In this document: positions 12,565 through 51,057 of the stretch, in pieces
Layout: each line of letters opens with the position of its first letter
Position numbering within the stretch: the stretch's first letter is position 1
Assembly: GCA_037974665.1 (NCBI GenBank)
Contig: CM075773.1
Span: forward strand, 46,082,080-46,146,079
Direction of reading: 5' to 3'
Length of the DNA: 64,000 nt
Origin: Ehretia macrophylla
Taxonomy: Eukaryota > Streptophyta > Magnoliopsida > Boraginales > Ehretiaceae
Position numbers and translations under genes: made by a program
Notes under the pieces: model-generated
Seen by the model: only the letters and a program-made list of their open reading frames with translations
The model's database searches: none
What the model was told of the DNA's origin: nothing

Positions 12565-12569
12565 GGATG

Positions 12570-20179: not shown

Positions 20180-20346
20180 TTTTCTTTTGCACATTGTGGA
20201 GTTTGCTATATAGGAGAATTATGGTTAAGATTGGTCGCCAATCACAACGGCAAGAAAGGCTCAGAAGAGAAACCTTAACCCACGACACTTGGGTCTTGCC
20301 GCAATTTGATGCATACCAAGTTGTTGATTCGCTTGTATATATAACT
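20180..20346 (+). pseudogene. 3' scrap of the small membrane-protein family (copy B)
   Basis: Translation in the frame of 20194 (MVKIGRQSQRQERLRR, then TWVLPQFDAYQVVDSL) matches the C-terminal tail of the copy at 34323-34943 (VKIGHQSQVQERLRRR, TWALSQNDAYPVDSLP). The membrane-spanning N-terminal two-thirds are absent upstream. About 20370-20400 (GCGGCAGATACTGCTTATG region) also matches DNA downstream of the 34-kb copy (GAGCAGATAATACTGC). The family has no name I know. Confidence 0.75.
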
Positions 20347-22460: not shown

Positions 22461-23138
22461 AAAAACATTTATTAGTTTATAATACAAGAGTTAAAAAAAC
22501 GTTGCAATAAGTTACCAATTGCCCACAACCTGTTATTTTTAAATTTCAGTTTTCCAAAGAGTTAAAATGTCCCATATAGAGCACAACAGCCTTTCTCTTC
22601 GACTACAAAAATATTTGAAATATGTTTAATAAAGCCAAAACAACAATGAAAAAAGCTCGTGCTAGGTCTGGCCGGTTTGTTATTTTTGTAAATATTAAAT
22701 ATATTCGATGTTCTTTTTCTAAAAGTATTTTATATACTACAATAAATACTAAATGTATTTGCAATTATAGCCCTTGGTTTGAGGATTTTTCAGAAGAGAT
22801 ATTCTACTGGCAAAGTGGTGTTTGAGGGTTTGTCACAATTTCTCATTTAATATTGTATTTCCACAATGATTGGTGATGTAGAATGGAGTACGAATGGTAC
22901 GGATTTTAATTAGCCACAAGCCAAAATCATCTTGAATTTGAAGAGAGACCTAGTCAATTATATCAGTAAATATAGAAGTGACACGAATCAAGTTACTCAT
23001 GTATCTAAAGAAATGATGTTTTACCCTTCTATCATTTTCCCAAAATGATCTCGAGTGTACTAGGTGGTTGAGTAATAATGTTTTCTGCTAGAGGATGCCG
23101 TATGCCTAAATTTGTGGACAAATTTGCACATTATTCAA
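22461..23138. other. AT-rich intergenic DNA, no gene seen
   Basis: A 67-codon frame at 22622-22825 has no recognisable domain. The phrase CTACTGGCAAAGTGGTGTTTG near 22803 recurs at 57066 (CTACTAGCAAAGTGGAGTTTG) and partly at 36497. This is another dispersed duplicated segment. Confidence 0.45.
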
Positions 23139-24524: not shown

Positions 24525-27499
24525 AAACAGATTCTTTAACACTTGGGCATCTCATGAGGGGTTTCGTCCCATCCTTGAAGAGGTGTGGAATACTCAATTT
24601 TCGGGCTATCCTATGTTCAGACTGGTTAAGAAATTAAAATCCCTGAAAGAAGTCCTTAAATATTTCAACAAATAGCACTTTACTAGAATCAGTTCATCCA
24701 TCTCCATTCTCATATCTGAGCTGGAGACTGTGCAAAATAACTTATTGAGCTCGATACTTGATCACGAGTTAGCAAGTAAGGAGGCTGATTTGAGGGGTCA
24801 GTTGATGGAGGCCTTACTTTATGAAGAGTCCATTTTGCAACAAAAGGCTCGTGTTTATTGGTTGAAGGAAGGTGACCTGAATATGGCGTACTTCCATAGA
24901 GTTATTAAGGGGCGATAAGTTCGTAATACTATCTCTAGTGTGGTTGATGATAATGGCAATATTCTGACGTCCAATGCAGACATTGTTGACAATTTTGTTA
25001 GTTACTTTAAGAACTTGTTGGGAACGAACAGAATGGATAGTATGGATTATACAATTGGTGATCTCAAGAATTTGTTGGGGAAGTCGATCTCTGAGGAAAA
25101 TAAGAGGTTATTCTCGGAGCTTGTGTCTGACTTTGAAATCAAAGAAGCCATGTTCTCTATCAACAGCTCCAAAAGTCCGGGTCCTGATGGGTATCCTGCT
25201 TTCTTCTTCAAGAATGACTGGGATGTTGTTGGTGCCAATGTCTATTGTGCAGTGAAGGATACTTTGAACTCTGGGATTCTTCTTAAAGAAATAAATACTA
25301 CAATCATCACTCTCATTCCGAAGGTTAGTAATCCTTCGGGGCCTAAAGACTATAGGCCTATTTCTTGTTGCAATGTGATTTACAAATGTGTTTCTAAGGT
25401 GATTGCTAATAGGTTGTGCAAGGTGCTTGATTCGATCATCTCTATTAATCAATCAGCCTTTATTCCGGGACGTAAAATTCTTGATAATGTGCTTATTGCT
25501 CAGGAGTTGGTTAGGAATTATGGTAGGAAGTATACAACATCCAGATGTATCATTAAGTTTGACATTATGAAAGCCTACGATTCTGTCGACTAGAACTTTA
25601 TACGATCATCCTTTCCTACTCTTGAGTTTCCTGGAAACTTTATTAAATGGATTGATATGTGTATCTCCACGCCATCTTATTCTGTGATGATAAATGGCCA
25701 AATGGAGGGCTTTTTTTAGAGGGAAAAAAGACTCAGACAAGGTGACCCGATTTTGCCCTATATCTTTGTGATTGTCATGGAAGCTTTATCAAATTTGCTG
25801 AACCAATGTGGTAACTTGTGAGGCTTTGCTTTTCACCCCAAATGCAAGAAGAGTAACCGTAATCACCTTGCATTTGCAGATGATATCCTTATTTTCTCCA
25901 AGGCTAACCCGAGCTCCATTGCTATCATCAAAAAAGCCATCGTCGTCTTCTCTAAAATGTCAGGCCTCCACTTTAGCAATGCTAAAAGTCAAATTTTCTT
26001 TGCTGGCTACCCGGATAGTTGTAAACTCTTTATTTGTGAATCACTAGGCATCAAAGAGGGGAACCTGGCAGTGCGGTACTTGGGTGCTCCCTTGATTACT
26101 AGTAGGCTCAACAAATCTATTTGTAGTGCTTTAGTGAACAAGATCACTTCTAGAATTGATCATTGGACAACTAATTGGCTGTCCTATGCTCGTAGACTTC
26201 AGCTTATCAATTCAGTTTTGCAAAGTATTTTGACTTATTGGTGTAATGTGTTCATGCTATTGAAAGGTGTTATTGAGGAGATTGAAAGAAAGTTCACTGC
26301 ATTTCTATGGAAAAATGGAGGGGAAAATGCGAGAGGGGCCAAAGTGGCTTGGTCAAAAGTCAGCAAACCAAAGAAAGAAGGAGGCCTTGGTGTTCGAAGT
26401 TTGTGGGATATCAATGTTGTTGCTATTCTCAAGCAGTTTTGGCATACGTATTGCGATAATGACTTTCTTTGGGGCTATTAGGCTAATCGAGTCTTACTTG
26501 ACAGTTGCAATATTTGGAGTGTTGATATTCCAAACAACGCATCGTGGACTTGGTGTAATCTACTCCAAATTAGACAAGTTGCTAAAAGGTTCATTCGCCA
26601 TCAAGTTGCAAACGGGTGTAATACCAATCTTCTTTGGGATACTTGGCTGCCTTGTGAAAGTCTTTGGGATTTTTCACATTCTAACAATATTGATATCCCG
26701 ACTAATTGTGGAAACTTGAAAGTGGCTGACTGTATTAATGGCTTTTGCTGGAATTGGCCTAGCAATCTTAGGTGGATTGAAGCCTTAGTTGACTTCGAAC
26801 CAAGACCTGACATGCAAGACCGACTTATTGGGTTGTGGGGACTCGTACGGATTTCAATTTCCATTCGGCATGGGAATATATTCGAGCCAAGAGTACTGAA
26901 GTTTTTTAGGAGGAGCTGGTGTGGAACAAATCTATTATACTTAACCACAGCTTCTGCACCTGTCTCACGATGCTTTATAGGCTTGCTACTAAGGCGAGAA
27001 TTTCTAGTTGGGGTATCTCAACTGATGTGAATTGTTGCTTCTGTGGACTGGGTGTGGAATGTAGAAATCACATTTTCTTTGATTGTCTGTTCACTCACCG
27101 TATTTGGAAATGGTGTGCAAAGCGAAGCGGTATGGTGTCCTCAATGCCGACTGGGTCACCATTGTTGAGAAACTTTGTAAAATCAGCAAATGACGTAGCT
27201 TGAAGGCAACCATTGTGAGAAATGCTTTCAACTCTTGTATTTACTACATTTGGATGGAGCGTAACGCTAGATTTTTTGGCACTAATCCACAAACTAAAGA
27301 ATAGATTATTAGAAAAATTAATTTTGATGTGAGGGGCAAGGTTAAGTTAATTTGTAAATATCCTAACACCTTAGAAAACTCAATTTTTTGTAGAGACTGT
27401 AATATTTGTATTTCTTAAGGCTTCCTATATCGGAACCTTAGATGTATAGTGCTTTGATGTGGAAATGAAATAATTATTTTTGCTGAGCAAAAAAAAAAA
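24525..27499 (+). pseudogene. LINE ORF2 reverse transcriptase, decayed copy with tail
   Basis: A non-LTR retrotransposon ORF2 without its endonuclease end: homology starts near 24529 (FFNTWASHEGFRPILEEVWN). RT motifs include KSPGPDGYPAFFFK, TTIITLIPKV, KDYRPISCCNVIYK, NQSAFIPGRKILDN and the catalytic FADD at 25873-25884. The downstream connection domain reads VRYLGAPLI and WLSYARRLQLINSVL. A zf-RVT (CCFCGLGVECRNHIFFDC) follows, then YYIWMERNARFF, a non-coding 3' tail and an A11 run at 27489-27499. One frame serves 24529 to about 26840 but has stops at 24673, 24916, 25591, 25717, 25819 and 26479. A frameshift near 26840 moves zf-RVT to another frame. This is a 5'-truncated dead copy. Confidence 0.93.
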
Positions 27500-28444
27500 T
27501 CTGACTTGATCTCCGAAAAGAAGAAAAAAAAAATCTGACTTCATCACTCTTTTCCAGCAGAGCTCTTTTATCGGGTTTCTCTGAGGGCCTTCATATCAAT
27601 GAGACTCAGACGTGATGATATTAAAGTATGTAAACGACGTTTCCGCATTTCAAAGATTAAAGTCGATAACTGCTAGTGTGAAAGAACAATTTAAATAACA
27701 ATATATTGCCTTTTTTTTTTTCTCTATCTTTTGCCAATTTACATATGAATTAGGGAAAGAATGAGTCTTGGGTTTCTGACATCATTCAAAATTCTATCCA
27801 CAGAAAAGACAAAAATCTTCTTTTTTCTTATCAAAGTTACATGTTAGACGTGCTACAATAAAAATTTAATAACTCCTATAATTTATAAAAATGGGACAAA
27901 AAAATCTTTGCATAAACACTTACATATATATATGGTATTAGTAGTTTTTCATGGAATTTAATTAGAGCAAATGACCAGTGGTAAAGATGGATTGTTAATT
28001 TCGCACTTTCCACGTGGTAAACCATATTTTTCTTCTTTTTTTAATACAAATGAGGTCAAGTCATAATTACAAAAAATTATTGTAGTAGATGTTTTACTTT
28101 TTTTTTTATATCATTTTCTATAACTACAAGTAGCTATAAAATAGTAAAATGGGATGTACGATATTATGGCACTTTACGAGCCAATCAACACATCCATTAG
28201 TTTCTTGATAAACGCACATGGAACTCAATAGATAAGATCAAGGTTTTTTACATTAAATAGAAGCGATTTTCTCGTTCCTTTGTTGTGTAATTATAGTTTT
28301 TTTTTGTTTTGGGAGTCTAGTCGAAGACTAGAACAAATTCATTTTGAAACAAGAGCATTTCTTTCTGCTGAAGGAACTTTCACGATTCAGATCGGATAGC
28401 GAAAGTGAAACCTAATGACTCAGCAACAGCGTACTTCAAAATAA
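27500..28444. other. AT-rich intergenic DNA, no gene seen
   Basis: Just after the LINE tail, AAAATCTGACTT occurs twice with A-runs (27490-27545), a small local duplication. The rest holds poly-T runs and no coding homology. Confidence 0.5.
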
Positions 28445-28929
28445 GGAAAAATTTCACATTTAGTCCCTATTTTTTACAAAGTATCTCAGTTTAATCATTA
28501 TTATTTAAAATGTTTCAATTTAGTTCCTATTCTTTTACCAAAAGTTTTAATTTCGTCCCTATTGTTTAAAATATCTCAATTTAGTCTCTATTATTTTTTA
28601 AAAAATTTCAATTTCATCTCTATTGTTTTTAAAAAGTTTTAATTTCGTCCTTATTATTTTCATAAAGTTTCAAATTTATCCCTATTATCCAATGACTGAA
28701 TTAAAAAATTTTGAGAAACAATAGGGATGAATTTGAAACTTTTTGAAAACAATAGGAACGAAATTAAAAATTTTTAAGAAACAATAAGGATGAAATTGAA
28801 AACTTTAAATAATAAGGATGAAATTAAAACTTTTAGGGAAACAATAAGGACTAAATTGAGACATTTTAAATAATATCGACTAAACTGAAATTTTTTATAA
28901 ACAATAAGGACTAAATGTGAGATTTTCCC
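28445..28929. mobile_element. foldback element of about 50-bp reiterated phrases
   Basis: The left arm starts GGAAAAATTTCACATTTAG and repeats TTTAGTCCCTATT-type phrases about every 50 bp. The right arm is its complement, ending CTAAATGTGAGATTTTCCC. Ends match over about 20 bases with two differences. Flanks TCAAAATAA (left) and TTAAAATTA (right, read across the CACTA insertion at 28936) agree at 7 of 9 positions, consistent with a diverged 9-bp Mutator-type target duplication. No coding capacity. Confidence 0.7.
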
Positions 28930-28932
28930 TTA

Positions 28933-33730: not shown

Positions 33731-34322
33731 AACGCGTGAAAATGTGCTAAACAATTTGGTAACTGGTGTATGGACCACAGTCATACTTCCCAGTAATTGT
33801 CCTAATCTAATATTAGTTCGCTTCCGGTAGTTATATATATGTCTCACCCCGAAACCTGGATTCTATCGTAAAATCTTTGTTGTGTCATAGGATTTTCCCG
33901 TTTGCATATGTGAATGGGTTATCTAAGATACTCAGAAACTTACATGAAAGAACAAGGTGGACTTGTATCTTTTTCCATTGACTCTCTACGCAGAAATTAC
34001 ATCATTAGAAAGAAGTCGTCCAAAACCTTCGCTGTCCATTGGCCGGGTACATTAATTTTTTTATGATTAATAGAGGGTAATTACCTTTCAACCTGTGACC
34101 TTTGCTGATCATGATCATGTGCACCATCACGTTCGTCAGCTTGCAGTTTTAAGATATGGTAGTCCCACAGTGACGCTTCGCTCACTGCACGTACGACAAA
34201 ATATTCGTATAAGCAACTAAACAAATGAAGGTTTTTTCCTAACCTTGTCGTAATTATAAGTAAACCTCTCTGCTAATTCTTCAGCATGCTCATAAGTTTT
34301 CTTTCTTCATAGGTGATCTAAT
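33731..34322 (+). promoter_or_regulatory. upstream region of membrane-protein copy C
   Basis: 34160-34290 is similar to 49855-50005 (ACAGTGAYGCTTCGC, CAACTAAACAAATGAA, TTCTAAT-type phrases). Before the ATG the sequence is CTTTCTTCATAG then GTGATCTAATATGG, which looks like a 3' splice site followed by a short leader. CATAGGTGATCT recurs before copy D (44204-44215). A 5' leader intron is an inference from these shared bases. Confidence 0.4.
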
Positions 34323-34943
34323 ATGGCAGAGGCTACGAGTACAAACCATTATCTCAACCTATTCGGACAAAGCTTCTATGCGCAGTTCAATGTCATGTAC
34401 ATGACCATGAAGTGTCTTCGTTTGCAAAGCCACCATGCTCTGTCTACTCACCATACTATTCTCGCATTCATTGTTCCAGTGCTGCTCAACTTTCCGGAAT
34501 TGAAGTATCAAGGTAAAAATTAGTCTCCTTTCGAAACCCATCCACGAACGATGTTCATAGCCAATACAAGTATCCTCGTATATTGCGTGTTATATGATGC
34601 TATGTTGTGGATTTTGTCGAGCAATACCTCTCGTTATTATGCCAACTTTGTCCAAAAAGGTATGGTATTTCTCGGTACCTTGTCAATGGCAGCTCTGTCC
34701 TCAGTTTTTTTTCCAGACTTCATTCGTCCCATTTTATACTTCCTCCCCGTTTATTTTTCAGCAGGTGACCTGTTGTACTGCAAATTCTGCCTATTGTTGA
34801 AGTTGCTATACATGAAAATTAGGGTTAAGATTGGACACCAGTCACAAGTGCAAGAAAGGCTGAGACGACGACAAACCTTAATCCGTCGAACTTGGGCTTT
34901 GTCGCAGAACGATGCATACCCAGTAGATTCACTTCCTGTGTAA
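34323..34943 (+). pseudogene. uncharacterised 4-TM small protein, copy C, one nonsense codon
   Basis: The frame is 206 codons from the ATG at 34323 (MAEATSTNHYLNLF) to the TAA at 34941-34943. It is open except for a TAG at 34521-34523, where the sibling copy D has a Glu codon in the same context (KNESPFETHP). Hydrophobic segments: TILAFIVPVLLNF, TMFIANTSILVYCVLYDAM, GMVFLGTLSMAALSSVFF, and ILYFLPVYFSAGDLLY. A basic tail follows (VKIGHQSQVQERLRRRQ). Four membrane spans and a basic C-terminus suggest a small integral membrane protein. I do not recognise a named family or function. Related copies lie at 44216 and 47538, with a 3' scrap at 20180. Read-through, a recent null allele or a dead gene are all possible. 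Confidence 0.75.
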
Positions 34944-36286
34944 CCATATATAGCATAGGTGATATAAGAAACAAAATGATAGAATTTCCATTATTTGAAA
35001 GTTTTGATTAGTAGTGCAGAGCAGATAATACTGCTTATGTTATCACCTGTTTTGTCTTGTAAGTTGTATCTATAGATGAAAAAGTTTCCTACAGCTTAGA
35101 CCCAATTGTATTAGGATAGTCCAACAAAACTATCGCAAACACGATCGTTTCTAAATATCATACGTCACTAAACGCTTTCTTGTCCATAATATCTGTTATT
35201 TTCGAATTTAAACCCTATTTGCATATATCAATCCTAAATTAGATGCTAGCAAAACTATAAAGAAAGATTTTCAAATTGCATGGGAAAATCACCAATTTAG
35301 TCATTTTCATCAACTGGTCACTAAACGCTTTCTTGCCCTCTTAGCATGAGAGGCTCAAGTTTTCTAAAGACAGGAATTTAATACAGAACTGATGACTATG
35401 CAAAGAAACTCACATGAAAAACCGCTGACTTCTTTGTTGTCCATTGTTACCTATTCAATGTTCAACTTGAAAAAAATATATATATATCTTTGGTATTTTT
35501 TCTAAAAAACTATCATACTAGACACTGTTGTTATATAATGACACATCTTAGCATCTTTCACTGTATGAGTACATCTCCAAACTTACGTGTCAGAGTCCGC
35601 CACTTGTTTCATATCCTTAGAAAGATGACATAAGTTAGATATGTACATTAACATATGTGTCTAATCATTATCTTACCAATATTCAAACACTTGTGGCCGG
35701 CTTTGGCATGCGAGCAATAATATACAAACAGAATAATTATATACATATATATTTTACAAAAATGATATGGCAAAAATATGTTGAATTCTAAACAAAATGA
35801 ATGGCAAAACTATGTTGATTCCTTTTAGAATTCGTTGGTCAACCTCACCATATTAGAAGAGAGGAGAGACACATTAATTTCATGTGAGGATTTTTTGTAA
35901 GATTCTTTTGTAAGTGTAGTATTTTCTTTGGCATTATAATAATTCATTATCCTCGTATACTACCATTTTGTCAGTATTGTATGATTAGTTTATTTCAAAT
36001 TCTAGTTTGATTTGGTCCTAACAAGGTTCGACCAACGAATTGAAGACTTTGTACTGGATTGAGAATAAAATTAAAGATTCAGAAAATAAATATAAAAGAA
36101 TTGGGGTAATTTTAAGATTCAACTCTAATTGGAAAGGATCAAAATCCTTTTGAAATAAAAAAATAAAATCTCACTAGAAAAAAGCTGAGCATAGGCGGCA
36201 CAAATCCAATACAACAATGAGAAAACCTCGTCCTGGATTTAGCCTTTCTTTCTTCTTTTTTTTTTTTTTTTTCAAATATCATTTAT
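34944..36286. other. downstream block and AT-rich intergenic DNA
   Basis: 34985-35060 (GTGCAGAGCAGATAATACTGC) matches DNA downstream of the copies at 20380, 45120 and, inverted, 45870. CACTAAACGCTTTCTTGYCC is repeated at about 35166 and 35320. The rest has no recognised feature. Confidence 0.5.
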
Positions 36287-36440
36287 GTAATATCCTACGT
36301 TGATATGTGACTCAATATGAGATTATAGTTAAGAAATTCATATTATGGGTTTAAGTAATAACTCTAAGTGATCTATTTTAGATCCGGTAAATTTGAGGCT
36401 AAAAAATAATTATATTTTTAAATAGATGACATTAATCTCG
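36287..36440. repeat. dispersed about 150-bp repeat, copy 1 of 6
   Basis: It reads TGTAATATCCTACG, GGGTTTAAGTAATAACTCTAAG, GGTAAATTTGAGGCTAAAAA and ends with a TTTTTAAAT/ATGACA phrase. The same order recurs at 41932, 42296, 46216, 51058 and 51299. Class unknown; it may be a SINE or LTR remnant. Confidence 0.6.
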
Positions 36441-36617
36441 CGTGTTGACTAAGAGTGCTAAGCATGAGTCATGATAATTTATATTTGATGTGCCGAACTG
36501 GAGTTTGAGGGCTCGTAGCAATTTCTCTCCTTTTTTTTTTTTTGTTTCTTAATGAATGGTGGAAACATAATGGAATATACATGGGAAAGTTGAAAAGGTT
36601 TAAATTAGAAGCTACAC

Positions 36618-36620
<3 letters not shown>

Positions 36621-36675
<55 letters not shown>
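36621..36675. repeat. (TA)n microsatellite
   Basis: An uninterrupted alternation of TA over about 55 bases. Its length is likely polymorphic. Confidence 0.95.
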
Positions 36676-36678
<3 letters not shown>

Positions 36679-37197
36679 TGAGCCCCAACTTTTCTAAACC
36701 TTCACAAATGAAGAAAGTTGCCAACCTTCCCTCTTAACATGATCCTCACTTTTCTAAACAACTTTTTCCGTTTCCCGATTCTCACAGTAAAATTTGATTC
36801 TTTAAAGTTCATTCCTTCATGTAAAACATAATAGAGAAGTACTGGGGGAAAACCATGAAAGTAAAAGAGTAAAAAGAAAAAAAAAAGGTGTGACTGGAGG
36901 AGGGAGCTTGAAGTTAGTGGGGTGGGGAAATATATAGAAAATATCGGTGTCAAGGAAATATTTGTTGGGTCCTACCAAAGAAGATGCGTTAGATTTTGCA
37001 TGCAAATACATCTATGTCAAATAGATAATGCAAAGATAACACGTGACACGAAATAGGACAAGAAGGTTAAGTTTTGTGGAAGTAACTCTCACTTGAGATT
37101 TAAATTGTCTCGAATTTGAGTCACTTAGGATATATGTGAGAAACTACTATTGATTCCTTTTAAGGACAAAAAAAAAAAAAAAAAAAACCTGTGACAT
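36676..37197. other. intergenic, no gene supported
   Basis: Minus-strand frames at 36702-36953 and 36817-37011 are short and have no recognisable domain. An A20 run lies at 37169-37188. Confidence 0.5.
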
Positions 37198-37737
37198 GAA
37201 GTATATGTTGTTAGAATATGTTGTATCATCATTGATATGGTGGCAATTACAAAGCATTCAATCAATTCATAAAGGAGAAAGGCATGCAAAAAGTGTAGTT
37301 TGTAGTGAAATCATTATAAATTGAACATAAATTGTATAGAATCAATGTGGGACAAAGTGTAGAGTCAGCTCTTACATCACTTGTTACGACTCAAGTGCAA
37401 CTATAAATGTATCAATACATTGAGCCTAATCAAATGATTGAGAATATTTAAGTTCATATTGACAATTATAATAGAAAATTCAAATTATTATAAATTGAAT
37501 ACAAATCTCTTAAAAAACTAATTTGTGATCAAGTGTCACAGAGCTAGACCTAACTTTCCTAGCAATCCCCCATCCGTTGAAGCATTTTTACATCTTTTAG
37601 CATGAGTGGACCTAAATGAGTCCTGTTAGGAGTTTCTTCACATCATTGATGATTAGTGCAAAGCAGATAATAATATTGACATCACATGTTTACGTCTCTA
37701 CATAAGTGGGGAAGCACACCAAGTAAGCTTGTTACTC
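37198..37737 (+). repeat. inverted segmental duplication partner of 57812-58631
   Basis: Read in reverse complement, this segment aligns with 57812-58631: GTATATGTTGTTAGAATATG, CATTGATATGGTGGCAATTAC, GAACATAAATTGTA, GAGCCTAATCAAATGATTGA, CATCTTTTAGCATGAG, GCAGATAATAATATTGACAT, AAGTGGGGAAGCACACCAAG. No coding sense is apparent. Confidence 0.88.
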
Positions 37738-37855
37738 TTGCATAAGAGTGCATGTGCTCGATTGTTTCAATTTCTTCACCACACTATATATGTATATATA
37801 TTGGTTCCGGGGTACACACCGTCTCGTGTTCATTTTTCTCCATTGTTTTTTAAGG

Positions 37856-39033
37856 GACCTTAGCATAGTTGTCGAATCGTGAATCATATCGTGAATCAAA
37901 ATGTCATTTTTTTGAATCGTGAATCGAATCGAATCGTGAATCGTACCGATTTAGTCACAAATTTAAAACTAGTTGATATTTGACTTATTATGTTTCCATG
38001 TTGTGTCTTGTTCTTTTTGTTTTTTCTTAACCATATTTTAATGATCAACACCAAAGTCCTGTGTTAAGATAAAATAAATAAAATAATTAAAGTCCAACCC
38101 ATACTTTGACCGTAAATATCAATGAGATTCATGGTTAATGCATATAGGCATACACTGCTTTATTTGATAACAGAGACATCGTTTTTTGACCCAAAAAAAA
38201 AAACAGAGACATCGTTTAAAAACAGTTATGATCCCCAAACAATTTTTGCATCACAATATCATATTTCACAAATGCCCAAACTAGTGCTCGAAGGCTGCTG
38301 TAAACGATGTCTCTGTTTTCTTCCAAGCAAACACAAGGCCATTAAAAGCAAATATGTACACCATTAAAGTAAACCATTAAAACAAACTATTAAATGTTCT
38401 CTTCCAAGCCATATATACCAAGTACTACAAAAAGACACACGGCAAAAAACAGGCAAGCAAAACTCACAGTCATGGCTCTGCAAAAGCAAAAGTACCAGCA
38501 AAAAAAAAAAGTTGAAGCAAAAGCTAACGTCACTAACACGATCAGCTCAGTTGAAGGTTTGAAGCAAGATTCTTCTTCACCGGCCAAGTTGAAGCAATCA
38601 GCTTTGTCTCCCTCTTTTTAGTAGTTAGACTTAGGGCTTTCTATTTGGGGATTGTTTTTTGAATTGATAATTAAATATTGTTAAATGATAAATGATATTA
38701 TATAATGGGCCTTTTTTATTTTATTTGTTCATCTTGTTAATATTGGGCTAATTTTATTTTTCAAAAAATCAGCTACGAGTTTCTCTTTTTTTTTTTTTAT
38801 ATTACTGAAGTGGGCTTATTTTGTTATCTACTTTGAAATATTTTGGGCTTTTTTTTATAATTTTGACCAGAATCGCAAACGATTCAGTGAATCGTTCGAT
38901 TCACACGATTCGCTACGATTTACTATCGATTCACTTGCGATTCACGTCAATTCACGATTCTCCTATCTGACTTGTATCATTTTTTTAGTGAATCGTATGC
39001 GAATCGTACGATTCCGATTACACTGGACCTTAG
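37856..39033. mobile_element. hAT-type non-autonomous element, copy 2
   Basis: The element 37864-39025 (1162 bp) is flanked by perfect 8-bp copies of GACCTTAG (37856-37863 and 39026-39033). Its ends are CATAGTTGTCGAATCGTG and, inverted, CAGTGTAATCGGAATCG. Arms of about 100-150 bp are reiterations of GAATCGTGAATCGTACG-like phrases. The middle carries a 75-codon frame at 38394-38621 (rich in Lys, Gln and Ser: MALQKQKYQQKKKVEAKA) of unknown meaning and no transposase domain. It shares its plan with 23147-24177, so both likely use the same unseen hAT transposase. Confidence 0.88.
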
Positions 39034-40050
39034 TATGCCAAATATTCATCCAAAGTCATTTTGGCCACGAGGTAGAACTGAAAGGATTTTATCCTGAAAA
39101 GTTTTTGTATTTTTCGTATCTGCAACAGAGTACATCATGTGGCTTTTATACTACAAACAGTGACTAACAACCAAGCCTATAGAAGTGGTATACAAGTACA
39201 ACAACTAGATAACATCAAGGCAATTTAAACTTTTGAATTTTTAAAACAAATGACTCTTATCACGCCCCCTCAAGCGAAGTCGGGCTGAGAACAGAGAGCT
39301 TGGTACGTAATGTAATGAATCGTTGTCGCGAAAGAGGCTTAGTCATGATGTCAGCTAATTGGTCAATAGTGGATATGAATCGAACCTGTAGCTCTCCAGA
39401 AGCCACCTTTTCATGAACAAAGTGAAAATCCACTTCAATATGCTTGGTTCTAGCATGAAAAACAGGATTAGTTGTTAAATATGTAGCATCAATATTGTCA
39501 CACCAAAGAACAGGTTTAGATGTTGGCACCACACACAACTCGCATAACAGAGACTGGATCCAACATAAATCAGTTGTGGCAAATGTAATAGCATGATACT
39601 CAGCCTCTATACTAGAGCACGAAGTTGTAGTTTGTTTCTTGGCAGACCATGAGACTAAGTTCGGGCCAAGAAAGATACAGTAACCATGAGTGCTGCGGCG
39701 ATCATCTGGGCAACCTGTCCAATCTGAATATGCATGTAAACTAGTATAAGGTGAGGCATGAAAATGCAACCCATGATTGACAGTGCCTTTTAAGTACCGA
39801 AGGATGCATTTGACCACAGACCAGTGAACATCAGTAGGGGCATGCATGTACTGACATACCTTGTTAATAGCAAAACTAAGTTCAGGTCGTGTTATAGTGA
39901 GATATTGCAAGGCTCCCACAATGTTGCAATAAAGCGTTGGATCTGGAAAAGGATCACCAATATGTTGAGACAACTGCACAGTGTTTGATAAAGGAGTTGC
40001 AATCGTGTTTGCCTGATGAAGTTTAGTTCTGTTCAACAAATCATCATATA
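39034..40050 (-). pseudogene. truncated Ty1/copia: end of RT, RNase H, start of 3' LTR
   Basis: The minus-strand frame 39260-40117 reads YDDLLNRTKLHQANTIATPL, ALQYLTITRPELSFAINKV, HAYSDWTGCPDDRRSTHGYC, SSIEAEYHAITFATTDLCW and DIMTKPLSRQRF, the copia RT C-terminus and RNase H. The first catalytic Asp motif is SDW in place of DADW, a likely defect. After the stop there is a purine tract (GCTTGAGGGGGCGTG on the minus strand) and an LTR-like start TGATAAGAGTCA near 39258. TATAAAAG follows near 39160. The 5' half is missing, and the hAT element lies next to or inside the LTR. Confidence 0.88.
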
Positions 40051-40854
40051 TATCGTTGCTGACTAAGACAATTAAAATAGATATGTCATTCAAACAATTA
40101 TTAATTAAGGAGAACAAGCTCCGATGTCATTCAAACAATCATATGTCATTCAAAGTAAGAATTTTTCAAAAACAATTGATATATATATATATATATAATA
40201 AAAAAGTAAAAAAATAAAAAAAATTGAGAACAATATTGGATTCCCCGTTACAAACTATTAACATGACTATTGCTCATGGTCCCTGCGTGTTAGATAAGTA
40301 ATTTGATTAACCTAACTAGTAGTTTACATTATTTTAAATCACGAATGACAATTAACAAGTCGAATATAATTTGCTTTTCCTCAAACAAATCGAGATGGAC
40401 AATCGCATTGGAAATAATTAAGGGTAATAAAGATTAAATAATCTTACCGGATTTTGAAAGAAACAGGCGTGTGAAGTATATATCGACCATAGGTAAGCAA
40501 AAGATATATGTTGAGATAGACAATCAGGGTGCAAATTAGTGTCAAATAACTAATTGAGATTTCATACTAAAATCAATTAGTGTTAGGTAAAGTAGTTCGT
40601 GATCTTATATATTGGTGTTGAAAATCTTAATCTATCAACAAAGCATTTATGGTATATACATTTTGCATTAAGCTCTTGTCAATATAAGATTTTGTCTTCC
40701 CATTACGTCGTAAGATGTATTAATCCCATTTCTTTCATAAGATTGTGTTGTAATTATTTTATCTACTCCTATGTATAAGGTGTCTATATCTTTTCACCCC
40801 ATATATCATTACTCGTTGATGATGCTAGACTTTGTGGAATTGAAGTACATATAT
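40051..40854. other. AT-rich intergenic DNA, no gene seen
   Basis: A short (AT)n run lies near 40178-40198. ATATGTCATTCAAA is repeated at 40081, 40119 and 40141. No coding homology is seen. Confidence 0.5.
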
Positions 40855-41415
40855 ATTTTTTGGCTAAACCAGTAAGAAGTTTCATTCAATATCAAAAACT
40901 GTGGAGTACATTTTACAAAAGAAGCCTACACAAAAAGGATCTATTCAAGTGTTGCGCTAATCTTCCAATATGTACAAAGGGCACGGTTACATGAATTGTC
41001 TTTAAATTTGCTACCTGAAAGCATTTCAATCTAACCGTCTCTTCAATCATAGCAACATTTGGTCTTCTGTTGAAACTCCATTGCCAAATAGTCTACAATT
41101 GAGTTCTCTCCAGAGGTGGAAGATGCAAGCAGGAAAGACGATTTTAAGAATGGCTGCTTAATTTAATAGTCTTCATTTTGCAACTCTCAGTGATATAGTG
41201 AAGAGTTTGATCCCAACGAATACTTCCAACTGTGGTCATTGCAAATTTAACACACCTTCGCCAGACTCTTCTACTAAATGTACATTCAAAGAAGATGGGA
41301 GCACGCGCTTCCAATCCCATATGGCAAAGTTCATATGAATCATTAACGTGAAAACCCAACTAATTAGTCTGGATTTCGTTGGCAATCTATCAAGGATTGC
41401 TAAGAATTGAAGTAC
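40855..41415 (-). pseudogene. 5'-truncated LINE 3' end with zf-RVT remnant
   Basis: On the minus strand, AILDRLPTKSRLISW leads into a zf-RVT-like stretch in a second frame (YELCHMGLEARAPIFFEC, then FSRRVWRR), typical of plant LINE ORF2 ends. Several stops follow. The non-coding tail reads TTGAATGAAACTTCTTACTGG, GTTTAGCC and a short A6 run at about 40856. There is no RT core. The related fragments at 3551-4171 and 24525-27499 share this domain. Confidence 0.75.
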
Positions 41416-43230
41416 ATATATTAAGAAAGAGAACGTGTAACCATTCAAATTAAGCACATCATTTCCATGTTTGTAGCTACTTTTTACTCTACTCGTATAA
41501 TAAAATCAACCATTAGCATTTTGGCAATATTCTAGTACTGAACTGTCATGGAATATCAATTCATATAGAGTTGAAATAGATAGTGCTAGTCTTTAACCAC
41601 CAGAGCTAGTGAGAGAACAATTTAATATATATTATTTTGTTTTGCGAATTTACATATACAACATGCCTTTCTTTTTGTCAGAACATATGCATCAGGCTCA
41701 GTTATGCAATACCTTGCGTCACTCACATCGTACAAAATTCTATCTCAGCTTCTGACATTAGAATTTTTTTTTGGTGGACCTGACATTAAAATCTAGCGTT
41801 AATTTAGCATTTTGGGCAATTTTCTAATACTGACTAACTCTTGAACATGCCGCTTAATATTGAGTTGAATTAGACAATGCAAGTGTTCGAAAATGCTTCA
41901 CAATCTAGCAGATTCATCTTCGTATGTATGTGTAATGTCTTACGTAAAAAGGTGGAGACACTAAAAGTATATGATTTATACAGGTGTTGTATGTTTAAAT
42001 GATAATTTTAGTTAATTATTGTGGGTCAGTAAATTTGAGCCTTAAATAGTTATTTTTTTAAACCTATAACACTAGTTTCACTTCCATGTTTAAAGTGTGA
42101 CAAAATGGTATTTAAAGTTTGTTACCAGTCGGGTGTGGAAACTAAATGTTGTGTGGAACACACTACTATACCAAGAAAGTAGTGAGAGCCATCTCTAAAA
42201 ACTGTACGAATCACTTTTAAAATCTCGCACCACCTAGTAGTAGTGTTTGTGTACCTTATAAGGATGTCAGATTTTCAATGGAGGTGTATTTAATGTTTCA
42301 CAATGGTGAGAGAAATTATAAGTAATTAGTTTCTAAATTGGTGTTGTGGATTTAAGTAATAACTTAAACTAACTATTTTGAATTAGTGAATTTAAAGCTA
42401 ACACTAATGGCTAGTGGTGACTCATTACACTTTTTTTCCCTATTGATTCAAAAACGGTTTAAATTATTTTATATCATTTAAAATATTATACAAGAAAATT
42501 AATTTCGAAACTTTACAAATCCAAAATGAGAATTATGTCACCAGACAAAATAGCTAGTGGCTGACTCGTTTCGTTCTAGATTATATACCTTTTCTCATTT
42601 CTTTCCTACGTGTTAGAATGGACGTATATATAGAAATACGGGGAACAAATTAACAATGTTTCCATTAATGGCCAATTTGTAATTATGTCAACTTACATGA
42701 GGATTCCGATCCATGTCGCTTTTTGTACAGTAGTATTTTTTGAAAGGTGAAATTAATGTGACGATGGACTGGTTGCCTTGCGCTTTCCTTGTGGTCAATG
42801 TTCGTTTTTATTAATTAGAAGTGGGTTTGCACCTTACCTTTGTTATGTTTAGGGATTTAAATGAAAAGTATCGTCGCTGCATTTTTTACTTTTTACATGC
42901 ATGTTTCATCGATAGATCGTTCATTAATCAACATCTATCTATTAGTTAATTAAATTTGTATGTCGATTAGGTATATGAAAAACAGATTATAGATGGGTAA
43001 TAAAGAAAAAGCACCATATATCTATGTATTTGTTAAGTTTGTATGTCAATTTAAGTATAACAAAAGAAGAAGATAAATGGATAATAAAAAAAAGTGATAT
43101 AGAATTTTTCTTAAATGAAACTACTACTCTATATTTGGAATTTTTACGAAACTGGTAGTAGAAAAAAAAATATGAAGGAAATAAAGGAAAGATAAAACAA
43201 ATGAAGTATATATTAACAGGCTCTTTGAAA
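41416..43230. other. intergenic with dispersed repeats, no gene seen
   Basis: Holds two copies of the 150-bp dispersed repeat (41932-42120 and 42296-42420) and the duplicated segment 42690-42973 (see 3411-3550). TTTGTATGTCRATT occurs at 42955 and 43040 within a diverged tandem pair of about 80 bp. No coding homology is seen. Confidence 0.5.
41932..42420. repeat. dispersed about 150-bp repeat, copies 2 and 3
   Basis: Copy 2 is at 41932-42120 (GTAATGTCTTACG, GTTGTATGTTTAAATGATAA, GGGTCAGTAAATTTGAGCC, TAACACTAGTTTC). Copy 3 is at 42296-42420 (GTTGTGGATTTAAGTAATAAC, TTAGTGAATTTAAAGCTAAC). Confidence 0.55.
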
Positions 43231-43266
43231 CAAATGAATTCCATAAAATTTTATGGAATTCATTTG
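43231..43266. repeat. perfect 36-bp palindrome
   Basis: The 18-base half CAAATGAATTCCATAAAA is followed directly by its exact reverse complement, with no loop. It lies beside CTCTTTGAAA and CGATTTTTTAGTCTTTGG, suggesting the tip of a small inverted-repeat transposon whose outer ends were not resolved. Confidence 0.95.
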
Positions 43267-43520
43267 CAAATCGATTTTTTAGTCTTTGGAAGCACCTATA
43301 ATGATCCTACATTATCTTACCCTTACAATGAGTATTTCTTAAGTACAAAGGGTTCTCTTACTTAATAGACTAGTTTTTTGAGATGGGCTATTCCTTTGGA
43401 CTTGAGTTGTTACATTCTTGGGCTATTTTGTTATATTGGTATTTTCATTAAGAGTGAACTTTATAGAAATGAGACTATAGGTCAGATTAAGGTGTGGTAT
43501 GCCACACTGAATACTGCAAT

Positions 43521-43885
43521 TTACACACCTGACAGCTAGTTTTTTTACACTAACTGATGAAAATATTTTTCAATTAATTTATTTTACGATTTTACCAAAT
43601 ACTGAAAAATTGAAAAAAATTTGCACAAAAAAAAAAAAATTACGGCAAACAAACGGAGCCAAGTGACACGCTATTTGTAGTCTAGGTAAGATAATCTCCA
43701 AGGCATACCCCCATAGAAGATTTAACTCATTACCTTTCTTTTCTCTCCATAACCCCAAAGATCCTTTTATTAAATTGCAGGGAACGATCAAGATTGATAA
43801 ACTAGGTTTACCTTGCTTTAGATTTTGAAGTTGAAATCCTTTTTGTTAGTTAGATTTATCTTTTATAGATTCTTGTAAAAAGGAG
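43521..43885. repeat. 365-bp near-identical direct repeat, partner of 46980-47343
   Basis: The two copies differ at only a few bases and A-run lengths. Each lies upstream of a family gene copy (44216 and 47538), which shows a tandem duplication of about 3.4 kb. Identity is much higher than between the gene copies themselves. Confidence 0.95.
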
Positions 43886-44035
43886 ATGAAGGATGGGACA
43901 TGTAAATCTCCCATCTTCAAGTTAGGTCTTATGTTTCCCTCCGAGATTTTATTAATATATAAATAAATAAATAAATAAATAAACGGTTTTTGGCCCACGT
44001 ACCCGGTCGGCTTTGTTAGTTTCCAATATGAGTGT
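43886..44035. other. spacer with microinversion and (AAAT)n run
   Basis: 43937-43963 is the exact reverse complement of 47443-47469, although the surrounding DNA is parallel. An (AAAT)n run follows at about 43959-43983. Confidence 0.7.
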
Positions 44036-44150
44036 GCACAAAGGTGCGTTTCGGTCAAATGGGTACAAGGGTGCATTTTGGTCAAATGGGTACAAGGGTG
44101 TTTTTTGGTCAAATGGGCACAAGGGTGTTTTTGGGTCAAATGGGCACTCA
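44036..44150. repeat. minisatellite, about 4 units of 29-30 bp
   Basis: Units of GGTCAAATGGGTACAAGGGTG followed by a T-rich phrase recur four times with small changes. The minus-strand frame at 43846-44139 with HPCTHLTK repeats is only a translation of this array. Confidence 0.9.
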
Positions 44151-44215
44151 GATTACTAGTAATAAAATAATCAATCTCTCACCTCAATATATTTCTTCTA
44201 CATAGGTGATCTTCC

Positions 44216-44821
44216 ATGCCAGAGGCCACAAGACCAAGCCATTTTCTTCTCCTTTCCGGAGAAAACATGTATGGGCAGTTCAATGTGATGTATAGAATGA
44301 CAATGAACAATCTTTGTTTGCAAAGCAACAATAATATTCTGCCTACTCTCCTTACTATTCTTGCATTCATTGTCCTAGTGATGCTCAACTTTCTGCAATT
44401 GAAGTATCAAGGCAAGAATGAGTCTCCATTCGAAACCCATCCAGCAACTATGTTTATCGCCATTACAAGTCTCCTCATATTTTGCAGGGCATGTTATGTT
44501 TCATCCAGATTTTCGTCGACCAATCCCTCCCATTCTTATAATGCTAAAACTGTTCAAAAAGGTATGGTGTTTTTCGGTACTCTGACAGTGGCAGCTCTGT
44601 ACTCGGTTCTTTTTTCTGTCCCTTTCTATATTTGCTCCCCATATGCTTTTCGGCAGGTGACCTTCTATACTCCAAATTTTGCTCTTTTTGGAGTTTTCTA
44701 TATCGCAGAGTACTTCTGGCTAATATCCTCCAGCAGTCACACATGCAACAAAGGTTCAGAAGATCGGTATTATCGATCCACCAATCTAGGTTTTTGCCAC
44801 AGAATGATGTGTAGCAAGTAG
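44216..44821 (+). pseudogene. uncharacterised 4-TM small protein, copy D, frameshifted C-terminus
   Basis: The open frame is 201 codons from the ATG at 44216 (MPEATRPSHFLLLSGENMYG). It aligns with copy C through YGQFNVMYRMTM, TILAFIVLVMLNFLQLKYQG, NESPFETHPATMFIAITSLL and QKGMVFFGTLTVAALYSVLF. Near 44613 it lacks about 11 bases relative to copy C. After that point the family-like C-terminus (ICFSAGDLLYSKFC, then QQRFRRSVLSIHQ) continues in the other frame, while the open frame ends with an unrelated tail. It could still encode a protein with a changed end, so calling it dead is an inference. A GTGATCT leader phrase precedes the ATG as in copy C. Confidence 0.7.
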
Positions 44822-46215
44822 ATTGCCTTCCTGTATAACCAGGGGTTGTGTGAATGATCCAATATAATAAGTTCTTCTTGGTGGGAACAAAAAATAAGTC
44901 TTTTTTTCCTGTATTAAGAGTGTTTCCTCAGCACACCCTCATGTCGGTGTAATTTTGCTATTGTGTAACTGTTGTATTGGTGTAACAAATTAATGGATAG
45001 ATTATATGATTCCGCATTTTGATGGTTGGATGCGCAGGGCAACAAAATGGTACAATATCCACTTTCTGGAACTTCGATTTACTTGTTAATGGATATTTTA
45101 GTCTTTGAAGATTTGGTTAGTTGTGCACAACAGATAATACTAATTTGGATTTAAGTAACATAATAACGTGATTAGAGAGATCGATACATAGTAATAAATA
45201 ACTCAAACATTTCATCACTATCAATCTTCTTAATAACATTATTATATTATTAAAAAATTCGAATCTATTACCTAGTTTTCTTTTCCTTAGTCTTTTCGAA
45301 GACTACAAACTTTTAGTAGCTAGACTTAAATACCAAACAAAATACACAAGGCATAGAGACATTTTACTATTGAACAACAACTGATCATGCCATTTGAACA
45401 GTTATAAGCAAAACAAGCTCCGATTCCACTTGAAATTCAACACGAGTGATGCTTAGACAAACTCAAAGAAAGAATGAAGAACACGATGTAAGGCCATGAT
45501 TATTAAGATGGCTATTAAAAAAGTCTCTTTAATTAGATTTGTCCGATTACAACTAGCATAATCCATTCAACAAGACTTAAGTCTAGTAGGAAAAGTTTGA
45601 TTTATAACTTCTTATTTTTTTTATTTTTTTTATCTCTTTAAAAATAAGTTATTAATTTTCAAATCATTAAAGCGTTTTTAAATGTTTAAAAACTAGGTTA
45701 AATAGGTCGTAAAAGACTAGAAGAAAATAATTGTAACACTCAGAGCGAAGAACCCCTCCTTTTACCAAAAAATAATAATAATAAAAGACTAGGAAAAAAT
45801 AAAAGTAGGAGAACATTCCATCTTAATATACAAAACGCCATTAAACATGAGATTTCATACGCGGTATTATCTGCTGTGCACTGATCGGATGTTCAAATAT
45901 TATAAATTTTATCATTTTGTCGCATCTATATTATAATATAATGACACAAGAATTATATCTACGTTGTATGAATCTAATATTGGCGTTGCGGAGGCTGTCT
46001 GTGGCCCCTGCTTCAATACGCAAAGAGAGGAGAAAGTTGTTTAGGTCAACACGTTGCTTTGTAAATTTCTTCGAACGTAACCTGTAATAGATTTTTAGAT
46101 TTCTTAGTGCAAAACGTTGTCTTTATAGTAATGAATATATGTTCAGGCTCATAAGGACTCAGATTTTACTACGTGTAATTTCTTTCAAAAGCATGTAAAC
46201 CACGTAAACCAATTG
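44822..46215. other. duplicated downstream block and intergenic DNA
   Basis: 45105-45150 (GTGCACAACAGATAATACTAA) and 45330-45600 (CACAAGGCATAGAGACATTTT, CCACTTGAAATTCAACACGAG, AGAAAGAATGAAGAACACGAT) match the downstream blocks of the other copies. 45860-45930 carries the same GCAGATAAT motif region inverted. No gene is seen. Confidence 0.55.
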
Positions 46216-46380
46216 TAATGTCTCATATTAGTGGAAAAAAATATTAAATTTTTGTTATAAGTAGGTTTTGCTAAATTGTTTAAATAATAACTTGATTTAA
46301 TATTATAGATTAGTAGATTAGAGACTAAATACTTATCTGTTAAGTTTATGACACTAGTTTGGTTATCAGGTCTAAAATTT
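46216..46380. repeat. dispersed about 150-bp repeat, copy 4
   Basis: It starts TGTAATGTCTCATATTAGTGG and continues TTTAAATAATAACTTG, GATTAGTAGATTAGAGAC and TTATGACACTAGTTT, as in the other copies. Confidence 0.6.
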
Positions 46381-46979
46381 TGGGGCCTAGAATGGGTAAA
46401 ATGGATGGAAATGTTGTTGAATTTTTGTGAGAAAAAAAAAGGATTGAAATTTTTTCTATGGAGAACATTTTTGTTTCTCCCAAGTTGAGGACAAATAGAA
46501 GGAAAATAAGTAATAGTATTATCATAACAAAACCACTACCTTATCTTTCATTGTTTTTCTTGAATATTCTAGTAAATTTACATTTAAAATTATCATTTCC
46601 TTTGTTTCTTTGAATCTTTACAAGAAATTATAAAATTTTTTCTTTTCTTTTTTCTTCTTCAATTTTTACCATCCAAATGAAGAGATCTTTCTCCTTTTTT
46701 CATTTCTTTTAAATGCCCTTTCTAATTTCCAATCTCTCGCCAATGTAAACATAGTATAGTGCAAGTCTTCAACCACTAAAGTGAGAAGACAATTTAAATA
46801 AAAAAAAGGAGATAATTTAAATATTTGTGTAAAAAAATTAATATTTTCTGGTGTTTGCGACTATAATGAAAAACATTTATTGATATAATTGGGGGTGACC
46901 AAGGGAGGGGGGGTTGAGAGGAGGTGAGGTGAAGTGCGAAATGAAAATATTTTCATCACTTAAAGTACTGTAAAACATT
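46381..46979. other. AT-rich intergenic DNA, no gene seen
   Basis: No coding homology or repeat boundary is seen. A purine-rich GGGAGGGGGGGTTGAG stretch lies near 46903. Confidence 0.5.
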
Positions 46980-47343
46980 TTACACACCTTACAACTAGTT
47001 TTTTTACACTAACTGATGAAAATATTTTTCAATTAATTTATTTTACGATTTTACCAAATACTGAAAAATAGAAAAAAAATTTGCACAAAAAAAAAATTAC
47101 GGCAAACAAACGGAGCCAAGTGACACGCTATTTGTAGTCTAGGTAAGATAATCTCCAAGGCATATCCCCCATAGAAGATTTAACTCATTACCTTTCTTTT
47201 CTCTCCATAACCCCAAAGATCCTTTTATTAAATTCCAGGGAACGATCAAGATTGATAAACTAGGTTTACCTTGCTTTAGATTTTGAAGTTGAAATCCTTT
47301 TTGTTAGTTAGATTTATCTTTTATAGATTCTTGTAAAAAGGAG
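46980..47343. repeat. 364-bp near-identical direct repeat, partner of 43521-43885
   Basis: Second copy of the pair. It begins TTACACACCT and ends TTCTTGTAAAAAGGAG. It lies about 195 bp before family copy E. Confidence 0.95.
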
Positions 47344-47505
47344 TGTTTATACTTCTTTTAGAGCAGATGAACAATGGGGCAGGTAAGTCCCCCATCCTCA
47401 AATTAGGCTTTATGTCCCCCTTTGTTTTTGTAATTTTTTTTTTTTATATATTAATAAAATCTCGGAGGGTAGCGCTCCTCTTTCCTTATAAAAAAAAAAA
47501 AAAAA
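47344..47505 (+). repeat. retroposon-like 3' tail with poly(A)
   Basis: TTAATAAAATCTCGGAGGG, TAGCGCTCCTCTTTCC and an A16 run (47490-47505) have the look of a plant LINE or mRNA-derived 3' end. The preceding part aligns with 43900-43936 upstream of copy D, then the two part company at the inverted 27-bp segment. Confidence 0.45.
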
Positions 47506-47537
47506 TCATCTTTCTTCTCCATAGTTGAGAGCTTTAT

Positions 47538-47830
47538 ATGGCAGAGGCTACAAGAACAAAGTAACTTTCTCCACCTCTTTGGAGAAAATTTCTATGGCCA
47601 GTTTAATTTCATGTATATGACAAGCAACTGCGTTTGTTTGGAAAGCTACAACGCTCTGGCTCATCACCATGATCTTCTTGTATTCATTGTTCCAGTGCTG
47701 CTCAATTTTCTGGAAGTGAAGTATCAAGGTGAAAATGACAATCCAGCTGTCGAAACCCATCCGAAAAAGATGTTTATAGTTAATTCAAGTCTGCTCATGT
47801 ATTGCAGCAGGTGATTTGATATACGTTTTT
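47538..47830 (+). pseudogene. 4-TM small protein family, copy E, frameshift and deletion
   Basis: It starts MAEATRTK at the ATG 47538-47540 and meets a stop at once because of a one-base frameshift. The family frame then resumes (FLHLFGENFYGQFNFMYMT, LLVFIVPVLLNFLEVKYQG, PAVETHPKKMFIVNSS). After the second membrane segment, YC is joined directly to the sequence equivalent to SAGDLLY of copy C. This is a deletion of about 170 bp at a CAGCAGGTGA junction. The rest of the C-terminus is absent. Not functional. Confidence 0.8.
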
Positions 47831-48609: not shown

Positions 48610-48985
48610 AAGAATATAGGGTAAATAACATATCACCCCCCTATGTTTTGCTAAAAATGCACAATATCCCCTTGTGTTTTAAAAATTAACTGATTATCCC
48701 CCTATTTTGCTAAAATTGCACAATACCCCCTGTGTTTTGCTAAAAGTAGCTTATTACCCCTCTTATATTTTCTAACAAAAACACTAATTTTTAAAAAGTA
48801 CAGGGGGTAATTAGCTAATTTTATAAAACACAGGGGGGTAATCAGTTAATTTATAAAACACAGGGGGTATTGTGCACTTTTAGCAAAATACAGGGGGGTA
48901 ATCAGTTACTTTTTAAAACACAGGGAGATATTGTGCATTTTTAGCAAAACACAAGGAGATAATACTCTATTTACCCAAGAATATA
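48610..48985. mobile_element. Mutator-type foldback element, 358 bp, 9-bp target duplication
   Basis: The element 48619-48976 is flanked by perfect 9-bp copies of AAGAATATA (48610-48618 and 48977-48985). It starts GGGTAAATAACATATC and ends CTCTATTTACCC. The inverted arms pair over most of the element (GTTTTGCTAAAAATGCACAAT in both). Arms consist of reiterated phrases such as AAAACACAGGGGGTAATCAG. A 9-bp target duplication and long inverted ends point to Mutator-like elements. No coding capacity. Confidence 0.9.
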
Positions 48986-49854
48986 TAACAATTTAGTCTT
49001 TTTTTATTTATTTAATCTAGCTGTAACTTAATGCTCTTTTTTTGTTCGCTAGTAAAGCAAGTGTACTTCATATCCACTGGACCACGTCAACATACATGAT
49101 TTTTGAAGCCATGTAAAGTAATTCTCCAATATTCTCCCAATTTCATATCTATGCAAACTTTTCCAATTCTGGAGATCACTATACCTCAGAATTATGGTTA
49201 AGATTGGTCCTAGTTAGTCTTGTTTTTTATTTTTTTTTATTTTTTTTTGTTTTATCCTATTTGACAAAACATCCTCTATCTTCAAAAATGCTATATTTAA
49301 ATCTATTAACTTTATACCTTTTGATATTGTGGGTCCTTTTATACTAATGCGGTTCTTTTAAATTTTTGTATGACCAACAAACTTTTATTAAGTTCTAAGC
49401 TTTCTCTTAAGATGGTTTAATTTCAATAGAGCCTGTATTTTTTTATAATCCATTACTGTTGTATATATTTTTAATTAATAAATTAATAATCAGATTTCGA
49501 TTTTTTTAATGTTTAAAATTAAAATCTATTGGTTTACTCGATCGATTATTACTTATATAAAAAAAATATATTAGTTTATCCGTCGATTTTTATTATTTAG
49601 AGATACTTATTGATTTCGATTTTAAACCCTACCCGCTGCCTTCCTTAAACATAGTCAGGCGAAATAAAGTTTTTGGTCAAGCACCTAAACCTTTTATAAT
49701 TGATTGAAGGCAACTTCCTCGACGGTTCGCGCTCACTGTTAATTCGAGCTCCCTTGTGGATTTGCCTCAAATAGTACAACTTAATAAGAATCTTATGCCC
49801 GCTGGACTTGTAACCATATGCACGAAATGATTACTGTTTGAAGAAATTATGGTT
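48986..49854. other. AT-rich intergenic DNA, no gene seen
   Basis: GAATTATGGTTAAGATTGGTCC near 49190 matches the start of family scrap B (20215), but nothing coding follows. The rest has no recognised feature. Confidence 0.45.
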
Positions 49855-50736: not shown

Positions 50737-51057
50737 AAATTAAGCAGCTAGCTACCAAGAAGAGAAAGCCCCCCCTTCCACTTGAAATTCAACATAAATA
50801 TTGAGGCCAGGACAAACTCAGAGAAAGAATGAAGAACACAATGTGGTACATGATTATTAAGATGGGCTGTTAAATAATTATGCAAATTCTGATTCGTCCT
50901 ATTACATGGTGCATAAATCAATTAGAACATAAACAAGACTTAATTCAAGCAGAAAAAGTGACAATATTTTCGGATAAGCTGATACAGCTTGGAAGTACTG
51001 AGATTTAAGTTAAGAATCTATAGACCCAAGCTTCTTAAGATAGTCCAACAAATAACT
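50737..51057. repeat. downstream block of the family duplication
   Basis: CCACTTGAAATTCAACATAAA, AACTCAGAGAAAGAATGAAG, AACACAATGTGGTACATG and GATTATTAAGATGG match 45420-45510 and 20808-20900. Confidence 0.7.

Follow-up and report, generated by a model that had tools for sequence, protein, structure and literature searches.

An unnamed gene family of predicted four-transmembrane proteins in Ehretia macrophylla forms a 4.39-Mb tandem array almost entirely in one orientation

Results

The window lies within a megabase-scale gene array

We analyzed a 64,000-nt stretch of Ehretia macrophylla DNA (GenBank assembly GCA_037974665.1, contig CM075773.1, forward strand; hereafter the window, located at C10:46,082,080–46,146,079), which carries decayed copies of an unnamed plant gene. 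The window sits within a tandem array of this gene family that extends over 4.39 Mb and keeps almost entirely to one orientation. We interpret the array as a birth-and-death array of a functional, unnamed plant family of proteins with four transmembrane (TM) segments, and assign a probability of about 0.83 to the genomic part of this interpretation.

The genome (1.58 Gb, 20 contigs) was searched with two protein queries from the window, copy C and copy B read through its stop codon. The two queries gave 706 and 611 first-look candidates, of which 150 each were scored, yielding 150 rows for C and, for B, 150 listed of 151 matches. Merging these 300 rows when their starts lay within 800 bp resolved at least 188 distinct loci between C10:43,797,743 and 48,189,943, with 186 in plus and 2 in minus orientation; the count is a lower bound because only 150 of each set of candidates were scored. 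A DNA pattern for the motif PFETHPxTMF, with up to 2 mismatches allowed, matched the genome 317 times, compared with a single match for the reversed control. Among the pattern places listed, 81 were exact, all within the C10 array stretch, and 13 places with one mismatch were on C1. None of six 6-kb samples from the flanks (at 43.50, 43.65, 43.75, 48.23, 48.33, and 48.48 Mb) contained a family match, and the same six showed no similarity to sampled array pieces. The array rests on a single assembly.

Many members are intact and constrained

We scored a locus as intact if it contained an ATG-to-stop open reading frame (ORF) of 195 to 215 codons ending in SLPV, and examined 38 array loci as pieces of 3.5 to 3.6 kb. 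An intact ORF was present in 19 of the 38, in each case as one uninterrupted coding stretch of 202 to 210 codons preceded by a short leader common to the copies. A hand count of the 150 rows listed for the read-through query found 63 that cover at least 180 of its 206 residues without a stop. The initial annotation had offered two accounts of the local duplications, a cluster with intact members beyond the window or a recently dying family; these counts bear out the former.

The coding sequence is under constraint, while the flanks of old types barely align. Among five old types, the 620-bp coding region aligned over nearly its full length in all 10 pairs, at 73.6 to 90.2% identity. Upstream of it, 5 of these pairs had no match and the remaining 5 matched over at most 100 bp. 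Downstream, 2 pairs had no match, 7 matched over no more than 106 bp, and only the closest pair had a longer match. The ratio of nonsynonymous to synonymous substitution (dN/dS) among the 19 intact loci (168 of 171 pairs, 3 being dropped for dS ≤0.02 or no value) was 0.38 when pooled and 0.37 at dS 0.4 to 0.7. Tree-wide omega was 0.47 (MG) or 0.56 (GY), and fixing omega at 1 with kappa at 2 (estimate 2.2) worsened the fit by 17.8 log-likelihood units. In a neutral simulation that included substitutions only, 0.65% of sequences remained stop-free at 0.27 substitutions per site.

Of 10 upstream regions that were aligned, 8 have a CT-rich leader directly before the start; copy B itself is not among the aligned rows. 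Most of these leaders carry an in-frame stop at −9, and several TATA-like elements occur (near −70 in L010).

Intact copies share a four-segment architecture

Proteins encoded by the intact array copies are 202 to 210 residues long. They contain four hydrophobic segments and a basic tail, and their first loop, ELKYQGKNESPFETHP, is conserved; the segments and tail recognized earlier in the window copies are also features of their intact relatives. In a comparison of 13 intact proteins from the array, C1, C6, and C10:54 Mb, the shared core L(E/Q)L(K/N)YQ..N.(S/T)PFETHP.(T/S)M(F/Y).A was present, with variation at single core positions. Besides the first Met, P52, L58, L60, Y62, Q63, F70, P74, A80, Y139, and Y163 are invariant in all 13. 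Eleven of these proteins have the four hydrophobic segments at the same places, and their second loop and tail are positively charged; under the positive-inside rule, this pattern suggests that both ends are cytosolic. Conservation across the 19 array copies is highest in the first loop (mean pairwise difference, 0.117), and the second loop and N-terminal tail are the most variable.

All family copies in the window are decayed

The family-related features of the window are as follows (window positions).

34323–34943, plus strand: copy B, a full-length pseudogene with a single in-frame TAG at codon 67.
44216–44821, plus strand: copy C, a 201-codon ORF in which the family frame is lost after about codon 134.
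47538–47830, plus strand: 5′ part of copy D, with TAA at codon 9.
49152–49208, plus strand: 3′ scrap, probably the rest of D (tblastn E 0.86, weak alone).
20180–20346, plus strand: copy A, a 3′ scrap, probably derived from a G0/L037-type gene and riding on an amplified unit.
49855 to about 50005/50020, plus strand: E, the upstream region of a G-type gene, without a gene body.
34201–34322, plus strand: upstream region of B, with a TATA-like element, TTATAAGTA, a CT-rich leader, and an in-frame TGA at −9.
43517–43885, plus strand: 369-bp repeat upstream of C, 97% identical to 46976–47343.
46976–47343, plus strand: second copy of the 369-bp repeat, upstream of D.
2996–34236, strand not assigned: region of the amplified A unit, about 92 to 98% identical to samples from the 513-kb stretch after C.

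No intact family copy was found in the 64-kb window. The initial annotation had recognized related copies at 34323, 44216, and 47538 along with scraps, and tblastn and DNA matches within the window substantiate this. Copies B and C match at E 4e-38 as protein and at 73% over 664 bp as DNA. At codon 67, B has TAG where C has GAG, and stop-free relatives of B (L010, L011, and L012, 94–96%) were recovered by the protein search of the genome. In B and in the intact C-type copies L004 and L007 (210 residues each), the segment SAGDLLY...SLPV is read in the family frame; in C it lies in a different frame. With its family frame lost beyond about residue 134, C too is broken. D matches B at 60% over 82 residues and is interrupted; its probable 3′ scrap, absent from the initial annotation, is, as DNA, 75% identical to B and 81% to A. 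Between the two parts lie a repeat that also occurs at 21917–22509 and a 358-bp self-inverted repeat. A matches the tail of B at 65% over 51 residues in the same frame. E is 91% identical to the region about 190 to 350 bp upstream of the G-type genes L022, L025, and L036; a tblastn search within the window found no gene body 3′ of E. The sequence at 50757–50959 gives a 73% DNA match to sequence downstream of C.

Probable growth of the array by duplication of multigene blocks

A tree of 38 loci resolved type clades labeled B, C, F, G, H, J, and K. Most type clades span megabases with short tips, and 16 of the 35 inner branches are well supported. In 11 pairs of same-type loci, the longest alignable stretches, which take in the flanks and reach 3.6 kb, are 95.7 to 98.4% identical, and such loci sit hundreds of kilobases to megabases apart. 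The types also recur in order: F comes next after H in 5 of 5 cases, 31 to 70 kb apart; G after F in 3 of 7, 31 to 37 kb apart; and C after B in 6 of 13, 9.2 to 11.3 kb apart. Eight of the 46 positions used for this ordering were typed solely by identity to B or C. The 369-bp repeat is likewise found upstream of the C-type copies L003, L004, and L007. It had been considered as long terminal repeats (LTRs) carrying C, a candidate rejected since the repeat is part of the C-type block. No transposon that accounts for the array copies was found; multigene blocks were duplicated.

The 513 kb after C contain no family rows in the protein lists, and all six samples from this stretch match window positions 2,996–34,236. 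A 1-kb probe from the amplified unit, for which 40 of 576 candidates were scored, identified at least 16 full-length copies at 95 to 100%, including that of the window, and 1 partial copy; the 15 other than the window's are at 95 to 97%. Between 46.157 and 46.629 Mb, 13 full-length copies and the partial one follow each other at intervals of 21 to 54 kb; the spacings obtained with this probe, about 21 to 56 kb, rule out a fixed 26.5-kb unit for the 513-kb stretch. Two further copies each lie upstream of a B-type copy, that at 45.026 Mb by 20.6 kb and that at 47.512 Mb by 10.6 kb, and the window's copy lies 15.0 kb upstream of B. The distribution of probe copies over the 513-kb stretch therefore indicates that a unit whose only gene remnant is scrap A was itself amplified. 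The earlier suggestion of a recently dying family holds for the window and for this amplified fragment and fails for the family.

Distant paralogs cluster elsewhere in the genome

A PFETHP-bearing paralog on C1 matches the array genome-wide at E about 1e-18 and is 35 to 42% identical to array copies over about 108 to 135 residues in direct comparison. Among the rows listed for this query, 8 are at C1:59.08–59.15 Mb, 2 at C3:55.07–55.13 Mb, 2 at C6:13.87–13.89 Mb, 18 at C10:53.78–54.44 Mb, and 8 in the window array; the remainder (112 if all 150 matches were listed) fall at C1:26.42–28.32 Mb. A divergent member from C10:54 Mb, used as query, returned the same places and no other among 150 listed of 151 matches.

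The C1:26.42–28.32 Mb region is a second large cluster, with copies on both strands. Stretches of 3.6 to 5.9 kb are repeated at 91 to 95% among three 10-kb samples, in which the ends were not resolved. The cluster contains open 224-residue copies (e.g., L058, L060, and L062). A scripted ORF search of individual loci gave no full ORF for L057, L059, L061, L064, L072, L076, L079, and L082 and shortened ones for L063, L066, and L069. Sequence about 1.3 kb upstream of G0-type genes gave seven matches at 75 to 77% among the 40 of 576 candidates scored, six at C20:13.99–16.12 Mb and one at C13:51.50 Mb, and the 2-Mb stretch of C20 may hide another related array.

The family has no curated model in the databases searched

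The initial annotation knew no family name, and this still stands after sequence searches of Pfam, NCBIfam, and PDB. No Pfam model scored above its curated cut-off. The best match, LGT, reached 19.8 bits against a cut-off of 24.9 and only with the broken copy C; LGT, DUF2339, and TctB were all rejected for this copy as below cut-off, and of its weak matches LGT alone recurs in one intact copy (E 0.052). For seven proteins, nothing came near cut-off in NCBIfam. Profile searches of PDB gave no convincing family, and one had no match at all; the others returned an armadillo-like protein (9lwo_B, E 0.0015–0.0026 over 61–67 positions), a PRA1 family protein (8hf2_A, E 0.046 over 105 positions, not significant), and a transporter at E 1.1. 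No relatives were found in prokaryotic genomes by a pattern prefilter followed by tblastn on 130 stretches. A full-text literature search, a weak one without the species name, found no report of a function for the family.

Mobile elements in the window

Nested copia-type elements occupy 7086–16684. The terminal repeats of the outer element (7086–7322 and 16444–16684) are 94.6% alike, and those of the inner one (7857–8045 and 12376–12564) 98.4%. The inner insertion looks younger than the L045 duplication, since L045 joins 7856 to 12564 as an empty site. Pieces of a reverse transcriptase (RVT_1) of the long interspersed nuclear element type lie between A and B at 24919–26478, and a 639-codon stop-to-stop frame at 61525–63444 on the minus strand encodes Mutator-like (MULE) transposase and MuDR DNA-binding domains. 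Long imperfect self-inverted repeats, resembling miniature inverted-repeat transposable elements, occur at 48619–48976 (between the parts of D), 28442–28932, and 23551–23852.

Discussion

We propose that the array would grow by unequal exchange and by duplication of multigene blocks, and that copies would then decay in a birth-and-death process of which the window retains decayed products only. Intact copies would encode small membrane proteins that cross the membrane four times and keep both ends in the cytosol. Their conserved, putatively outer loop may bind a constant partner or ligand, a role that we regard as possible but rather doubtful; copy number would then mainly change dose. Plant NLR and F-box genes form birth-and-death tandem clusters of mixed intact and broken copies. 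The present array resembles them in its tandem growth and in having intact beside broken copies, and differs in its near-single orientation over 4.39 Mb, in the nested amplification of a scrap-bearing unit, and in encoding an uncharacterized protein.

Several observations weigh against the birth-and-death reading of a functional family. The intact fraction is a biased rate, because loci were picked from the best-scoring rows. Young duplicates look relaxed (dN/dS 0.59 at dS 0.02–0.1), and the neutral simulation leaves 45% of sequences stop-free at 0.03 substitutions per site, so that the openness of young copies proves little. L070 has three hydrophobic segments, and L071 has four with one elsewhere. 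The ordering of types over 46 positions was made without statistical control. Finally, the distances between pairs of the 188 loci are not clearly periodic (best z 2.7), from which it follows that the blocks are irregular.

The family may instead be a passenger, a protein of ordinary membrane function whose array is large because the chromosome stretch is prone to exchange, with most copies neutral; to this account we give slightly less than even odds. The amplification of a unit containing only a 3′ gene scrap, in at least 16 full-length probe copies, favors this account, as do the relaxed appearance of young copies and the many broken ones. Against it stand the 63 of 150 listed rows that are uninterrupted over at least 180 residues, the coding constraint across old types, and the multiplication of the family also on C1 and at C10:54 Mb. 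That copies were spread as genes borne within mobile elements is, in our estimate, very improbable. The surroundings are rich in transposable elements, the 369-bp repeat occurs near C and D, and the C1 cluster runs on both strands with unit ends not resolved; however, 186 of 188 loci lie on one strand in a single stretch, the flanks of five types have no common element ends, and the 369-bp repeat forms part of the C-type block. Homologs in the C10 array are thus not confined to transposons, since flanks are type-specific and whole multigene blocks were copied.

Two readings concern function. CASP-like and DMP/DUF679 proteins are four-TM plant families of about 200 residues, and neither is among the Pfam matches of the array family. 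The proteins might be endomembrane adaptors, that is, four-TM trafficking proteins of the PRA1 type. Length (about 200 residues), four TM segments, and two cytosolic ends would be shared, and the PDB profile search points weakly the same way. The match to 8hf2_A is not significant, however, and an armadillo-like protein, which is unrelated, scores better in that search (E 0.0026); the match may reflect hydrophobic composition, and PRA1 (PF03208) is absent among the Pfam matches. We consider this relationship unlikely. A role in recognition or ion permeation, in pollen–pistil interaction or defense, would be suggested by analogy with PrpS of poppy (Papaver) and SE1, SE2, and SEA of Ipomoea. According to PMC13033167, these are small multi-TM or four-TM proteins, perhaps channel-like, without homologs outside their plant families. 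The likeness, drawn from those descriptions, is one of architecture only: small, hydrophobic, lineage-restricted proteins with four (SE) or multiple (PrpS) predicted TM segments and no known domain (PMC13033167). The large local expansion would also fit. In contrast to their polymorphic S-locus, the present family has hundreds of paralogs in megabase arrays, and its first loop is the most conserved among paralogs, which argues against a hypervariable recognition loop; omega is below 1. We judge such a role improbable. Less probable again is the idea of a megabase library of a receptor- or channel-like four-TM protein, kept in one orientation and refreshed in blocks, that would serve a recognition or conflict system (reproductive barrier, drive, or defense) new to this plant group.

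If the assembly is right, a single family without a curated model accounts for at least 188 loci in 4.39 Mb and for further clusters. The array points to a membrane-protein family for which no reported function was found, and it would offer a model system for studying gene multiplication within a chromosome segment at several nested scales.

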